A stretch of DNA of 33,622 bases from Nitrospirales bacterium. GTDB taxonomy: Bacteria > Nitrospirota > Nitrospiria > Nitrospirales > UBA8639. The translations under genes and the position numbers were made by a program. Below the pieces are notes generated by a model, which was not told where the DNA came from, made no database searches, and saw nothing but the letters and a program-made list of their open reading frames with translations. This document shows positions 2,724-8,781 of this stretch, piece by piece. The stretch is from NCBI GenBank assembly GCA_007570995.1, contig RKSG01000069.1:1-33622 (forward strand), in the 5' to 3' direction. Positions within the stretch are counted from its first letter, which is position 1, and each line of letters begins with the position of its first letter.

Positions 2724-3758
2724 TCACAGGCCCGCCAACGATGCCTCCAGACGACTCCGGCCCTCGACAAATTCCACCGCAAGCGATATGGCAAAGACCG
2801 GAACAGCCAGTGACCACCGTGACGGACATTTCACCAGATCCTTTTCGGTCGTGAGCACCACATCCGGGTGACTCCGTTCCACGGATCGAGCAATGGTCCT
2901 GAGCGTCAAAGCCGTATACGTCACATGGTCATGAAACACACATTCGTCAACCACGTGAACACCGAGCGCGACCACCATCCGACGAAACTGCCTCGGGTTC
3001 CCGACGCCGCTGAAAATAAGCGCGCGCCGTCCCAGGATCGTGGCAATCGGTTGACAGACGGCGTCTGCCGATGCCCCCATCAATGCCTGGGCCGTGAAGC
3101 GCGTCGTAATGGGATCACACTGGCAACCCATGGCTGCCTCCAGCGATTCCACCACGCGGGGCACGGCAGCGGCATCGTCCACCCGGGTCAGGATAATCTC
3201 CGAAGCCCGTCTTGCCTCCACAAGCGATTCCCGAAGCCTGCCTGCAGGAAGCAACGCGCGCATGCCATGAAGATCGGAGCTGTCAATCAACAACAGATTC
3301 ACATCGCGAGCCAGGCTCAAATGCTGGAATCCGTCATCTAACACAAAACAATCAACGGACATCTGCCGTAACACCCAACGGCCCAGCCGGTAGCGATTGG
3401 TGCCAACGGCCACCACGACCCCCGGGCAACGACGGGCCATCAAATACGGCTCATCGCCCGCCTCACGGGGGCCAGCAAAGACTGCCTGTCCATCGGAGAC
3501 CAGCACAAAGGTGTGCCGGGCATGCCGCCGGTATCCCCGACTGAGGATGGCCACCTTTTTCCCTCGCTCCATAAGCCTGTTGGCCACCCACATGGTCATG
3601 GGCGTTTTGCCCGTGCCACCCACGGTCAGATTGCCCACACTGACAACCGGACACGGCAACCGATGCTGAGGGAACCATCCATGCTCGTACAGCCATGTTC
3701 GGGAACGTATCAGGCCCTGATACGGCACGGCAATCAGCGACTTCCAGACATTGCCCAT
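2724..3758 (-). CDS. lpxK: Tetraacyldisaccharide 4'-kinase
   Basis: LpxK phosphorylates the 4' position of the lipid A disaccharide at the inner face of the cytoplasmic membrane, producing lipid IVA. The P-loop region reads VVSVGNLTVGGTGKTP near residue 40, which is diagnostic. The segments ILSRGYRR, GDEPYLMA and DCFVLDDGFQH are also LpxK hallmarks. The hydrophobic N-terminal part is expected to contact the membrane. Starting at the ATG at 3758 gives 344 residues. An upstream TTG at 3848 would overlap the end of waaA and add 30 residues with no family resemblance. The gene lies 58 bases after waaA, in the order in which Kdo-lipid A enzymes are often clustered. Confidence 0.94.
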   Translation of the reverse strand: MGNVWKSLIAVPYQGLIRSRTWLYEHGWFPQHRLPCPVVSVGNLTVGGTGKTPMTMWVANRLMERGKKVAILSRGYRRHARHTFVLVSDGQAVFAGPREAGDEPYLMARRCPGVVVAVGTNRYRLGRWVLRQMSVDCFVLDDGFQHLSLARDVNLLLIDSSDLHGMRALLPAGRLRESLVEARRASEIILTRVDDAAAVPRVVESLEAAMGCQCDPITTRFTAQALMGASADAVCQPIATILGRRALIFSGVGNPRQFRRMVVALGVHVVDECVFHDHVTYTALTLRTIARSVERSHPDVVLTTEKDLVKCPSRWSLAVPVFAISLAVEFVEGRSRLEASLAGL

Positions 3759-3816
3759 TGGTTCATGCACGCCCGGTGAGGACTGACTGACAGCAGATCC
3801 CGTGGGCCCAGGAGGG

Positions 3817-5124
3817 TTACGGCCTGTGAAAACCGGCCACCTGCTCAAGCAGATTCATATTTCTTTCGACCACACCCCGATTGTCATCGATGACTTTCCG
3901 CGCACATTGTCCGACATGAGAGGCCCAGGCATGATCCCGCATGCCTTTCAGGAACGTGTCCGTCAATTCCCGGACGTTACGGACCCGAATGCCCCCACCG
4001 GTTTCAATGAACAACTCTGCGATGTCCTGACAGTGATCGGTGTACGGACCAAAACAGACCGGCCTGCCCCACGCCGCCGGTTCCAAAAGATTATGCCCTC
4101 CAACGGGCTCCAGTGTCCCTCCAACAAACGCCATCACGGCCAATCCGTATATCCGGGCCAATTCGCCGCGGGTATCAAGCAGAATGACTCGAGGCACCCC
4201 GGCGTCCCTGACATCCCCGGCACGATACCCGTTCGTGCGCAAGGCACTCCGTCTCATCACCGGAAACCCGCACTGCCGAATGGTGCGAGCCAGCCCGTCG
4301 CTGCGCTCGATGTGTCGCGGGGCCAGGAGCAGGACTGTCCCTGGAACCTCACGCGTCACCGCGCGATAACTTTCCAGAAGCATGGCTTCTTCGGAAGGAT
4401 GGGTGCTACCCGCAACAATCAATCCCTCGTCTTCCAGAAGCCCCAGTGCCGACCGCTCAATGGCCCCCTGCCCGGTCTGCCCGCCCTCCATGGTCAGGTC
4501 AAACTTCATGTTCCCCGTACTGTGCATTCGAGCCGGCGCGGCCCCCAACTCAACAAACCGACGTTCATCCCGCCGGGATTGCAGAAGGCCCAGGGACACC
4601 GTGGCGAGTACGTGCCGCATGAAAGGCCGAATCCATTGATAGCGGGAAAAGGAACGGGAGGACAATCGGCCATTCACAATAATCGACGGAATGCCGCGGC
4701 GACCGAGGGCGCGTAACAAATTCGGCCACAGTTCGGTTTCGACCACACAAAACCCCATCGGGCGCAGAGACTCAATAAACCGGCGGACAATCCACGGATA
4801 ATCAAGCGGGACAAAACAATGTGTCGCCATGCCTGCCAGACAGCGTTCTACGGCTTCCCGTCCGGTTTCCGTCACGGTTGAGACGACAATCCTGATGCCA
4901 GGATACCGACGACGGAACGCGGAGACGAACGGCACAATGGCAGAGACCTCACCCAGGGACACAGCATGAATCCAGAAAATTTTTTCGTCAGAGGCCTCCC
5001 GACACGGTACGACCCATCCCATTCTCTGCGACAGGCCGGCGCGACACCGTTTTTTGATCAGCAGCATGCCAAGCACAACGGGAAAACCGAGAATCAGGAG
5101 CACATTATACAGGCCATACCACAT
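3817..5124 (-). CDS. waaA: 3-deoxy-D-manno-octulosonic acid (Kdo) transferase
   Basis: This membrane-anchored GT30 enzyme attaches Kdo to lipid A precursor using CMP-Kdo. The N-terminus has one hydrophobic anchor (about residues 3-20) followed by basic residues. The segment WIHAVSLGEVSA contains the catalytic glutamate of the family. Later blocks include VETELWPNLL, a VAGSTHPSEEAMLL motif and the C-terminal GGHNLLEPAAWG, all typical of WaaA. From the ATG at 5124 it is 435 residues. A TTG four codons upstream is possible. Whether it adds one, two or more Kdo residues cannot be read from the sequence. It sits between the acyltransferase and lpxK. Confidence 0.95.
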   Translation of the reverse strand: MWYGLYNVLLILGFPVVLGMLLIKKRCRAGLSQRMGWVVPCREASDEKIFWIHAVSLGEVSAIVPFVSAFRRRYPGIRIVVSTVTETGREAVERCLAGMATHCFVPLDYPWIVRRFIESLRPMGFCVVETELWPNLLRALGRRGIPSIIVNGRLSSRSFSRYQWIRPFMRHVLATVSLGLLQSRRDERRFVELGAAPARMHSTGNMKFDLTMEGGQTGQGAIERSALGLLEDEGLIVAGSTHPSEEAMLLESYRAVTREVPGTVLLLAPRHIERSDGLARTIRQCGFPVMRRSALRTNGYRAGDVRDAGVPRVILLDTRGELARIYGLAVMAFVGGTLEPVGGHNLLEPAAWGRPVCFGPYTDHCQDIAELFIETGGGIRVRNVRELTDTFLKGMRDHAWASHVGQCARKVIDDNRGVVERNMNLLEQVAGFHRP

Positions 5125-5219
5125 CTCGGTCGCCAATTCTCAGTGGGGCACAGGGAGGATTTTCGCACATCCCACCTTTCACACAGGATGCCATGGGGAC
5201 ATGGCGCGACGTCTTGCTG

Positions 5220-5875
5220 TCAATCGCGCTGGTGAACCATCGCTTCGGCTTCAGATGCCATGGTCACAAGGGTCATCTCGACATTCCGCCGCGCGCGTTC
5301 CATGGCCTCGGGACCGGAGGCCCGTTCAACCCGGATTGGGGGCCCCCACAGAAAAATCCCCCGCGAAAATGGATACGGGATCATCAACCGATCCCAGCTG
5401 GACAACCTTTTTTTTTTGAGCACGCAAACGTCAGCGGCACAATCGGCATGCCTGTGGCTCCGGCAAGGACCAGGACACCCGGCTGCACCCGATGCATGGG
5501 CCCCCGCGGGCCATCAGGCGTAATGACAAGATCCACCCCCTGTCGCCCCGCGCGGATGAGTTGACGCAATGCGCTCGCCCCTCCCCTCGTCGTCGATCCG
5601 CGAACCGCGCCGAACCCGAATTGTTTCATCACGCGATACACGAGCTCTCCATCACGATGCTGGCTGATCAGAATCCTGGCATCACGGCCGCGGTAGGCAA
5701 GCGGCATCATCAACTGTTGTCCATGCCAGAACGTGATGATCACAGGGCGACCCTGCCGGTGTAATCGATCAACGTGTTCGCATCCCTGCACACGCCATGA
5801 CATGGAGCGACCGAGCAGACGAATGGCGCGGGCACCGATGAGCGGGAACAGGTTCGCGTGCAGCCAGCGCCTCAT
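5220..5875 (-). CDS. DUF374-type lysophospholipid/lipid A acyltransferase, split by a frameshift at an A10 run
   Basis: The first 150 or so residues match the DUF374 branch of the LPLAT family. TFWHGQQLMM carries the HX4 active-site region and TPDGPRGP is the second conserved block. In frame 0 the protein stops at 163 residues, shortly after three lysines. A matching C-terminus (RLSSWDRLMIPYPFSRGIFLW and onward to 5220) continues in the -1 frame. The two parts join at a run of ten A on the coding strand (5408-5417). With eleven A, or a -1 slip, the product would be 218 residues, the normal family length. Its place between msbA and waaA suggests late acylation of lipid A, in place of LpxL/LpxM. 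The break may be a sequencing or assembly error, phase variation, or programmed slippage; see the findings. The start ATG at 5875 is 21 bases after the msbA stop. Confidence 0.8.
5377..5395 (-). other. Hairpin 12 bases downstream of the A10 slip site
   Basis: GGGATC and GATCCC form a perfect six-base-pair stem around a seven-base loop. The UGA that ends frame 0 (5384-5386) lies inside the loop. The position is compatible with a stimulator of -1 frameshifting, though the 12-base gap is longer than in the classic dnaX signal. Confidence 0.5.
5408..5417 (-). repeat. Homopolymer of ten A (coding strand) at the acyltransferase frame break
   Basis: The plus strand shows ten T, so the coding strand reads UCA followed by three AAA codons and then GGU. 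This is a strong slip site for ribosomes (A AAA AAA type) and for RNA polymerase, and it is also a site prone to sequencing error. Confidence 0.95.
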
Positions 5876-5896: not shown

Positions 5897-7657
5897 TTAC
5901 AGCTGTACCGTGGATTCAGCCGGTTCGTCATGCCACTGGGTTTCGTACAGACGCCTGTAGAGCGCATTCCGACGAAGCAGATCGTGGTGGACGCCCATCC
6001 CGATCATGCGTCCCGCATCCATCACCACAATGCGGTCCGCACACCGAACGGTGGACAGACGATGGGCAATGACAAATGTCGTTCGATTTTTCACCAGTTC
6101 GGTCAGGGCAGCCTGAATATGTCGTTCAGACTCGGTATCCAGAGCAGACGTGGCCTCGTCCAGAATCAACAGCGGCGGATTGCGCAGGATCGCCCGAGCG
6201 ATGGCTAACCGCTGGCGTTGCCCCCCGGACAGCTTGACGCCATTTTCTCCAATCGGCGTGTCGAGACGATCTGGCAGTTTCTCAATAAATTCCCACGCAT
6301 GTCCTGCCCATGCCGCCCGAATAATGTCCTCTTCGCTGGCATCCGGCCGCCCGTAGGCGATGTTACCCCGTATGGTTTCCTCAAACAAGACGGTCTCCTG
6401 AGAGACAACGGCAATCTGCGCACGCAGCGAGGCTAAGGTGGCATCCGTGATGTCCCGCCCGTCAATCAACAGTTGCCCTTCAGTCGGGTCATACAACCGT
6501 GGGAGCAGACTCACCAGGGTGGATTTGCCACTTCCGCTTTTGCCAACCAACGCAATGACTTCACCAAAGTTGACCGTGAGATTGACATGATCGACCGCCA
6601 GCCTGTCCTCGTTGTCGTAGCGAAAGCTCACGTTCCGAAACTCAAGGACACGCCAGCGGTTCGGTAACGTCGTGCGCCCTCTGTCACTGACAAATTCGTG
6701 ATCCGTATCCATCATGTGAAAGACGCGATGCGCAGCAGACAGCGCATGCTGAATTGCCGTATTGGCCCCCACGATTTTTTTCACCGGGGCATAGGCCATC
6801 AACATGGCCGCCAGAAAGGAAAAAAATTCTCCGGGTTTGAGTTGGTCGTCAATGACCAGCAGCCCCCCGTACCAGATAATCATGGTCACCCCGCCAACCC
6901 CGATCACTTCCATAATCGGCGAGGCAAAGGCCGTGAGCTGAGCCGACTTGATACAGGCCCGCATGTACGACGTGTTGCTCCTGGTAAAACGCTTCTGTTC
7001 AATGTGTTCTCCCCCATAGGCTTTGACGATACGAATACCGGTGAACGCCTCTTTCAGCGTGGACGCCATGTCCCCCATCGACTCCTGTCCCTTGGTAGCC
7101 AGGGTGCGCAACCGCGGGCCGATGGTGGTAAGGGCATAGATGGAAAACGGCATCATGACGATGAGTATCGTCGCCAACTGCCAGTTCTGATAAAACGCCA
7201 CGCCCACCATCACCACAAAGGTGAGACTCTGCTGGAACACGTCCTTCAGCACACTCGGAATGGCAGCGGCCATTTCATTGACGTCATTCAGAATTCTCGC
7301 AACCAGGCGGCCACTCGTCTGTCCATGATGAAACGCCAACGACTGTCGAAGGAACTGTCCGAACAACTGCTCGCGAATTTTGGCAACGGTTCGATGCCCC
7401 ACGGAACTCATCAGGTAGGCCTGTCCGTACGCGAAACCGCCTTTCAGGATCGCGACCACCAGAATCACGACGGGCAGGATCATCAGCAACGTCCGGTCTT
7501 TCTCGATAAAGATCCCATCCAGGACCGGCTGCACCAACCAGGCATACAGCCCCGACAGGCCTGCCACGCCAGCCGAACACAGACAGGCCATGGCCACCCG
7601 AAACCGGTGCTCGCGAAAGCACGACACAATCCGCAGAAAAACGGTCAGACCTGACAT
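5897..7657 (-). CDS. msbA: Lipid A ABC exporter/flippase MsbA
   Basis: A 586-residue half-transporter with six predicted membrane helices in the first 300 residues, then an ATP-binding domain. The Walker A sequence VGKSGSGKST is near residue 370, the ABC signature LSGGQRQRLAIARA near 473 and Walker B LLILDEATSALD near 494. The H-loop segment IAHRLSTV follows. As a homodimer it flips core-lipid A across the cytoplasmic membrane for pickup by the Lpt machinery. The start codon overlaps the end of lpxB by 13 bases, indicating translational coupling. Generic ABCB exporters look alike, but the position next to lpxB and waaA supports MsbA. Confidence 0.93.
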   Translation of the reverse strand: MSGLTVFLRIVSCFREHRFRVAMACLCSAGVAGLSGLYAWLVQPVLDGIFIEKDRTLLMILPVVILVVAILKGGFAYGQAYLMSSVGHRTVAKIREQLFGQFLRQSLAFHHGQTSGRLVARILNDVNEMAAAIPSVLKDVFQQSLTFVVMVGVAFYQNWQLATILIVMMPFSIYALTTIGPRLRTLATKGQESMGDMASTLKEAFTGIRIVKAYGGEHIEQKRFTRSNTSYMRACIKSAQLTAFASPIMEVIGVGGVTMIIWYGGLLVIDDQLKPGEFFSFLAAMLMAYAPVKKIVGANTAIQHALSAAHRVFHMMDTDHEFVSDRGRTTLPNRWRVLEFRNVSFRYDNEDRLAVDHVNLTVNFGEVIALVGKSGSGKSTLVSLLPRLYDPTEGQLLIDGRDITDATLASLRAQIAVVSQETVLFEETIRGNIAYGRPDASEEDIIRAAWAGHAWEFIEKLPDRLDTPIGENGVKLSGGQRQRLAIARAILRNPPLLILDEATSALDTESERHIQAALTELVKNRTTFVIAHRLSTVRCADRIVVMDAGRMIGMGVHHDLLRRNALYRRLYETQWHDEPAESTVQL

Positions 7658-8781
7658 GCAGCCAACACCTCCTCCGCCGCCCGACGGGAGGCCCCGGGTG
7701 TGCCAAGCTTGGCCCGAACATGCCCCAGAGCTTCCCGCATACGCTCATACTGCGCGCGATCCTTGAGAAACCGCAGGGCCTCTCCGCTGAGTCGTTCCGC
7801 CGTGGCTTCCGATTGCAGCAATTCCGGGACCACCCCGCGCCCGGCCACCAGATTGACCAACCCCACGTGGTCCACCTTCAGAAGCATTCTGGCCAGTAGC
7901 GCACTCAGCCATGACACCCGATACGCGAGAACCATCGGGGTACCGATCAGAGCCGCCTGCAAGGTGGCAGTCCCCGAGGCCACCAACAGGAAATCGGCGG
8001 CGGCCATGACCTCATTCGGCTGGTTCGGGATCAGCGTGACAGGAAATGTCGTGTGGTGCAGTCCTTCGTGGATCCAGTCATCAGGCACCGTGGGGGCTTG
8101 CCCGATCACACAATGGAGGGTGGGAAACGAGGCCTTGATTCGCAACACCGCTTCCATCATGACCGGCAGGAGCGACCGAATCTCGGCACGACGGCTCCCG
8201 GGAAGCACGCCAAGAATCATCCCTTCAGGGGGAAGCCCCAGGTGTTGCCGCGAACGGGTCCGCTCGTAGGCCGGGGCCATGCTGTCGAGTAACGGATGGC
8301 CCACAAAACGGCAGGGCACTCTGGCCTCCCGGTACAGCGGTTCCTCAAACGGCAAAATCACGACCATCCGACACACCACACGCTGAATCGTATGGATCCG
8401 CCGTCGGCCCCATGCCCAGATTTGCGGCGCAATATAATAGATCACCCGATGGCCAAGCCGAGCCGCAATTTTCGCCAATCGAAGATTCATGGATGGATTA
8501 TCGACAAAGACCACTCCAGCCAGCTTTTCCCGCCTGAAAAACCGTTTGAGGGTCGCCAGATTGGCAAGCCCTTTTCCGATCGTCGCCAGTCCCGGCACTC
8601 CAACGACATCCACACGATGTAACCCTTGCACGACCTCTATCCCCGCAGCCCGCATGTGTGGTCCGCCCACCCCAACGAGTCTGATATCCGGCCGGAGTGT
8701 GTGTAACGCTTTGGCCAGCCCGGCGCCATGGAGATCCCCCGACGCCTCTCCAGCCACAATCATGATTGACAGACCAGCCAT
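7645..8781 (-). CDS. lpxB: Lipid-A-disaccharide synthase
   Basis: LpxB (GT19) condenses UDP-2,3-diacylglucosamine with lipid X into the lipid A disaccharide on the inner leaflet. The protein is 378 residues, the usual length. The N-terminus reads SIMIVAGEASGDLHGAGL, a near-invariant LpxB opening. IYYIAPQIWAWG and the C-terminal region LLVASGTATLQAALIGTPMV (UDP-sugar site) are also diagnostic. Only three bases separate its ATG from the stop of the upstream oxidoreductase gene, and its end overlaps msbA, so the three genes form one tight transcription unit. Confidence 0.97.
   Translation of the reverse strand: MAGLSIMIVAGEASGDLHGAGLAKALHTLRPDIRLVGVGGPHMRAAGIEVVQGLHRVDVVGVPGLATIGKGLANLATLKRFFRREKLAGVVFVDNPSMNLRLAKIAARLGHRVIYYIAPQIWAWGRRRIHTIQRVVCRMVVILPFEEPLYREARVPCRFVGHPLLDSMAPAYERTRSRQHLGLPPEGMILGVLPGSRRAEIRSLLPVMMEAVLRIKASFPTLHCVIGQAPTVPDDWIHEGLHHTTFPVTLIPNQPNEVMAAADFLLVASGTATLQAALIGTPMVLAYRVSWLSALLARMLLKVDHVGLVNLVAGRGVVPELLQSEATAERLSGEALRFLKDRAQYERMREALGHVRAKLGTPGASRRAAEEVLAACQV

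Follow-up and report, generated by a model that had tools for sequence, protein, structure and literature searches.

A lipid A acyltransferase gene of the Nitrospirota with a conserved split at a run of A and a likely dependence on transcriptional slippage

A DUF374 (LpxJ-type) acyltransferase gene is split at the same codon, and in the identical manner, in 172 distinct sequences (duplicates removed) that span ten GTDB families and at least two classes of Nitrospirota; in each of them the C-terminal part lies in a frame that would be reached by the addition of one A at an uninterrupted run of at least nine. These sequences are kin to one another, so that the counts given below are not independent, and they come mostly from metagenome-assembled genomes. 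It is close to certain that recoding of the gene yields a full-length product. The form of the conservation makes it likely that the gene encodes an LpxJ-like secondary acyltransferase of lipid A and that productive transcriptional slippage is needed to make the full-length, active form.

The split gene and its surroundings

The window, by which we mean the whole stretch of 33,622 nucleotides analysed, carries the gene on its minus strand from 5875 to 5220, split at a run of ten A (A10, 5408-5417) in the context TCA AAA AAA AAA G. The frame-0 ORF (5384-5875, minus strand) encodes 163 amino acids, the N-terminal 156 of which would be common to the full-length protein, and it ends in TGC TCA AAA AAA AAA GGT TGT CCA GCT GGG ATC GGT TGA, with seven sense codons between the run and the stop (TGA, 5384-5386). 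The C-terminus of the family continues in the -1 frame for 62 codons and a stop (5220-5408, minus strand), reading ...KKKRLSSWDRLMIPYPFSRGIFLWGPPIRV... up to the stop at 5220; it would be read if the mRNA gained one A or if the ribosome shifted by -1. Joined, the two parts make 218 amino acids, the right length for the family, and our analysis confirmed the split, its coordinates and the joined length as they had been given in the first-pass annotation of this DNA. The frame-0 part matches DUF374 (PF04028) above the curated cut-off with E = 2.7e-29, and an in-frame homologue matches it with E = 2.7e-28. Neither strand of the window has another run of at least nine A besides A10, and shuffled sequences average 0.19 matches.

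The gene stands in a lipid A cluster on the minus strand of the window, consisting of lpxB (7645-8781), an msbA-type lipid A flippase gene (ABC transporter; 5897-7657) as the upstream neighbour, the DUF374 gene, the Kdo transferase gene waaA/kdtA (3817-5136) as the downstream neighbour, and lpxK (2724-3848). The association is general: msbA and/or waaA adjoins the DUF374 gene in 82 of the 84 loci tested. No gene of the LpxL/LpxM family (PF03279) was found in the draft genome that the window comes from (186 contigs, about 90% complete), and the DUF374 protein may therefore be the only late lipid A acyltransferase of its host; secondary acylation of lipid A is its putative role, at an exact acylation site that is likewise putative.

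Conservation of the split and of the run length

By tblastn the gene is present in 45 of 49 genomes of the GTDB family and in 217 of 236 genomes of the order; matches were obtained in 238 of 270 genomes of the class, the most distant of these being other DUF374 proteins, encoded in frame. The usual junction in the loci that we fetched is ...TGC TCA AAA AAA AAC/AAG, followed by an SWDRF..P segment in the -1 frame. The recoded arrangement extends to other families of the class (f5, f6, f7 and f8) and to other classes of the phylum (f17, f18 and f22), and 15 single-contig genomes are among its carriers. A pattern scan found the motif in 170 of 379 genomes of the phylum, mostly once per genome in the recoded clades, against three matches in a reversed control. 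The first-pass annotation had called for the tract to be compared in related genomes, and had named eleven A (or a sequence that is no homopolymer) with a plain full-length frame in the relatives as the outcome that would speak against it; the relatives proved to be out of frame at A9 or A10 almost everywhere, which supports its suggestion that slippage would yield both a truncated and a full-length enzyme.

Two minor observations may be added. One genome (G239) has two more matches to A9-N(11,12)-TGGGAY outside the DUF374 gene, on contigs C46 and C120, and several genomes of family f2 have a second, distant DUF374-like match of about 30% identity (L182, L187-L189 and L191).

The run itself is A9 in 156 of the recoded homologues, A10 in 15 and A11 in one; it is uninterrupted in all 172 and nowhere shorter than nine. 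If its first position is taken to be the third base of the Ser codon, the run occupies positions 1-9 in most species and is followed by C or G, whereas families f8 and f18 have T or C at position 1 and a run at positions 2-10; an f22 sequence outside the set of 172 (L277) has the same slid register. The registers of the lineages thus differ by one base, TCA AAA AAA AAC as against TCT/CGC AAA AAA AAA T/C. All 149 sequences with a base other than A at position 10 have A at position 1, and when position 10 is A, position 1 is some other base (T or C) in 8 of 23 sequences, a dependence with a Fisher value of 3e-8 when sequences are treated as unrelated. One species of f2 has changed its Ser TCA to Leu TTA and has still kept the A that belongs to the run, and TCA makes up only 12% of the TCN serine codons upstream in the same genes. 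The dependence between the two positions, the Leu codon and the rarity of TCA therefore argue for selection on nine consecutive A. As judged from these sequences, the conserved thing is the length of the run, not a codon or a heptamer, as would be expected for slippage of RNA polymerase that adds one A.

The direction of the shift that is needed is in all 172 cases the one produced by one added A. Over the 50 codons that follow the run, the -1 frame is free of stops in 169 of 169 sequences, compared with 11 of 169 for frame 0 and 27 of 169 for the +1 frame, and variability over the three codon positions of the -1 frame is 0.83, 0.61 and 1.50 bits, highest at the third; the -1 frame downstream of the run is under coding selection. 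The frame-0 stop, by contrast, follows the run at distances that range in relatives from a few codons to about 80, and the short protein accordingly has no conserved tail. One genome departs from the usual arrangement (G007; L009 and L264) in that A10 is kept and one T is missing a few bases downstream, which places the C-terminus in the +1 frame; this is either a sequencing error or a species that would need the loss of one A.

Transcriptional slippage and the alternatives to it

Bacterial RNA polymerase slips efficiently at runs of nine A (PMC5009743, PMC1088944), and at A/T runs in Escherichia coli and Buchnera most insertions, 80%, add a single base (PMC5574713). Selection against nine-A runs is seen in many genomes (PMC1088944). 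The features by which productive slippage is recognized are present here, namely an A/T run of at least nine at the frame junction (172/172 recoded homologues) and, after Baranov et al. 2005, a conserved run length together with a conserved extension in the shifted frame. We propose that RNA polymerase would sometimes insert one extra A on the run of at least nine; ribosomes on the slipped mRNA would then read on in the C-terminal frame and produce the whole enzyme (218 amino acids in the window), and unslipped mRNA would give the short, presumably inactive 163-amino-acid protein with its non-conserved tail. It is likely, given the pattern of conservation in the run, that the extra base is added by the polymerase and not by the ribosome. 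The lineages f4, G241, G015 and G039, which have no recoding, do count against any general need for the truncated product, which must be dispensable there.

The first-pass annotation had left slippage and dnaX-like -1 frameshifting side by side, and it is between these two that the details of the run discriminate. Programmed ribosomal frameshifting at A_AAA_AAN would also yield the full-length protein; a potential heptamer of this kind (ending in A, C or G) lies within every run, satisfying the X_XXY_YYZ pattern of dnaX-type sites, and a downstream hairpin can form in about half of the sequences. However, a heptamer at positions 4-10 would leave position 1 free, yet position 1 is invariably A in the 149 sequences just described, and the TCT or CGC that precedes the run in the slid-register families f8 and f18 abolishes any heptamer at positions 1-7. 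Most species moreover have A_AAA_AAC and not the strong A_AAA_AAG. Upstream Shine-Dalgarno-like 4-mers occur in just 1 of 172 sequences, on which ground a Shine-Dalgarno stimulator was rejected, and the conserved downstream structure of dnaX-type sites is also missing. The conservation pattern thus favours transcriptional slippage, and we consider the ribosomal explanation unlikely.

The hairpin deserves separate mention, since the first-pass annotation had drawn attention to it. The six-pair structure, GGGATC/GATCCC at 5377-5395 (minus strand) with the frame-0 TGA within its loop, does exist in the window; its standing as a conserved part of the system did not survive the comparison with relatives, where it is complete in 94 of 172 sequences and broken (four or fewer of the six pairs) in 42. 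Even in homologues that are in frame, and have no use for a stimulator, almost as many of the pairs form (mean 4.66 versus 5.19 in recoded sequences), since the two arms fall on the Trp-Asp and Ile/Val-Pro codons (Trp-Asp and Ile-Pro in the window). Codon choice in the 3' arm is GTC at Val in 80 of 92 cases, but at Ile it favours ATT, the weaker partner, over ATC, and these opposite preferences indicate no consistent selection on pairing. The stretch of the window downstream of A10 folds no better than shuffled sequences (z = -0.69). Having weighed the pair counts against slid registers and in-frame homologues, together with the folding, we rejected the hairpin as a stimulator and judge it incidental, forced in part by coding and broken in several clades.

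Phase variation, in which replication slippage in the tract toggles the gene between cells, was likewise raised by the first-pass annotation, as on/off switching of LPS acylation by tract length. Tracts of A9 to A10 do mutate easily, and G039 has an A10 that is in frame. Free switching would nevertheless give many in-frame lengths, and only one is found among about 175 sequences; among species the run stays at nine, or reaches ten by substitution of a flanking base, and remains in register. With run length conserved across species and free of drift, switching of this kind is very improbable. Still less plausible is gene fission, with two separate polypeptides that assemble, the second from its own start: a GTG does lie just before the tract in the -1 frame of the window, but only 60 of 172 sequences have an ATG, GTG or TTG anywhere in the stretch of open -1 frame that precedes the tract (ATG or GTG in 27), and fission leaves the conserved run of A unexplained. 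A separate start for the C-terminal part was accordingly discarded. Least credible of all is a sequencing or assembly error in one genome, which the first-pass annotation had held to be the simplest rival: errors are common in long homopolymers, the window is part of a draft in many contigs and a few odd cases (G007, G119) may indeed be errors, but the split, with its tract always in register, recurs in many independent assemblies across the ten families, those in a single contig included, and 172 distinct sequences exclude such an error as its cause.

The protein, known systems and the origin of the split

Comparison of an in-frame homologue (L053, from G039) with 24 other in-frame homologues showed that the family-invariant residues include W50, H51, D75, D121, W161 and D162, of which W161 and D162 fall after the shift site. 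Acylation by Rickettsia typhi LpxJ depends on each of W60, H61, D86, D132, W172 and D173 (PMC6148475); when the Rickettsia residues are matched to the invariant columns by local sequence and order, W172 and D173 correspond to W161 and D162, the Trp-Asp pair encoded in the -1 frame of the window at 5391-5396 (minus strand). The AlphaFold model (pLDDT 90.9) has the lysophospholipid-acyltransferase (LPLAT) fold, and its part after the shift site comprises three strands and two helices. A fold search of the PDB gave PlsC, LpxM and PatA as the ten best matches, and a sequence search of the PDB found no relative. The frame-0 product has neither the Trp-Asp pair nor the C-terminal strands and helices, and the short form should therefore be inactive, as presumably it is on the strength of residues and model together. 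The recoded full-length protein should be the enzyme, and slippage is probably needed for it to be active.

Well-documented cases of productive slippage in cellular bacterial genes are few and mostly narrow (Thermus dnaX, Shigella secretion genes, symbiont genes). In Thermus thermophilus dnaX, a run of nine A in the coding strand, as here, gives heterogeneous mRNAs and two products from one gene (PMC5009743, PMC1088944), but there the long product is templated and the slip makes the short one, whereas in the Nitrospirota the long, presumably active product would need the slip. Closer in this respect are Shigella mxiE and spa13, in which an added base joins two overlapping ORFs and function lies with the longer product (PMC1088944, PMC5009743); these are plasmid-borne virulence genes, in contrast to a gene of envelope biogenesis that sits in a conserved lipid A cluster and has persisted through much of a phylum. 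The ribosomal frameshift of E. coli dnaX (A_AAA_AAG) shares the A-rich site and the -1 direction, but in the Nitrospirota gene there is no Shine-Dalgarno stimulator, the hairpin is unconserved and at least nine A are kept rather than a heptamer. In Buchnera and Blochmannia, too, slippage at A runs mends disrupted frames; those are AT-rich reduced genomes, whereas the Nitrospirota genes are without such bias (as the 12% share of TCA illustrates) and the run is conserved over ten families. LpxJ (DUF374) of Rickettsia, Helicobacter and Campylobacter has the same essential W, H, D, D, W and D and a lipid A neighbourhood, but no recoding of those genes is reported in PMC6148475.

In the literature that we searched we found no published description of this split lipid A gene, and no published link of either DUF374/LpxJ or Nitrospira with slippage. 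A survey of 108 genomes in 2005 returned mostly insertion sequences as slippage candidates (PMC1088944), and that of Antonov et al. 2013 included one Nitrospirae genome. The Nitrospirota are the group of the nitrite-oxidising and comammox Nitrospira, and in them a lipid A gene appears slippage-dependent across ten families; annotation pipelines may label a probably active gene a pseudogene throughout this ecologically important group.

A maximum-likelihood tree places the recoded sequences in one Nitrospirota group (support 94), which also includes the outgroup-like L060, the in-frame f4, G241, G015 and G039, and G119, which has an upstream indel. Seven to eight changes are needed on this tree, compared with a mean of about 31 after shuffling. 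The nearest outgroup, L060, encodes SKKKIF in frame (TCG AAA AAG AAG ATC). Nested within the recoded clade are in-frame versions from G039 (L053/L151), G015 (L152), G241 (L203/L275) and f4 (L171, L172 and L176); one has A10 in frame and the rest are without an A run, for example TCG CAC AAG CAT. This nesting fits one ancient origin and a few reversions. The split probably arose from an in-frame run of A coding for SKKK: an ancestor of a large part of the Nitrospirota would have lost one A from an in-frame A10, slippage would have made up for the loss of frame, and selection on run length would since have preserved the arrangement, with rare returns to the plain frame.

The question raised by these observations is why the gene should stay out of frame for so long when a single common mutation could restore it. 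One added A would mend the frame at once, and its lasting absence suggests that slip-dependent output is tolerated or favoured. More tentatively, selection might act directly on the proportion of full-length and truncated LpxJ that slippage at A9 yields, as dosage or stress control of lipid A acylation, an idea that we hold to be possible but somewhat doubtful; if true, it would explain why the state lasts in so mutable a tract. In G119 (L173/L190), the start of the gene and the C-terminal part are brought into one frame by an indel some 12 codons ahead of A9, which may be a natural compensation or an assembly error.
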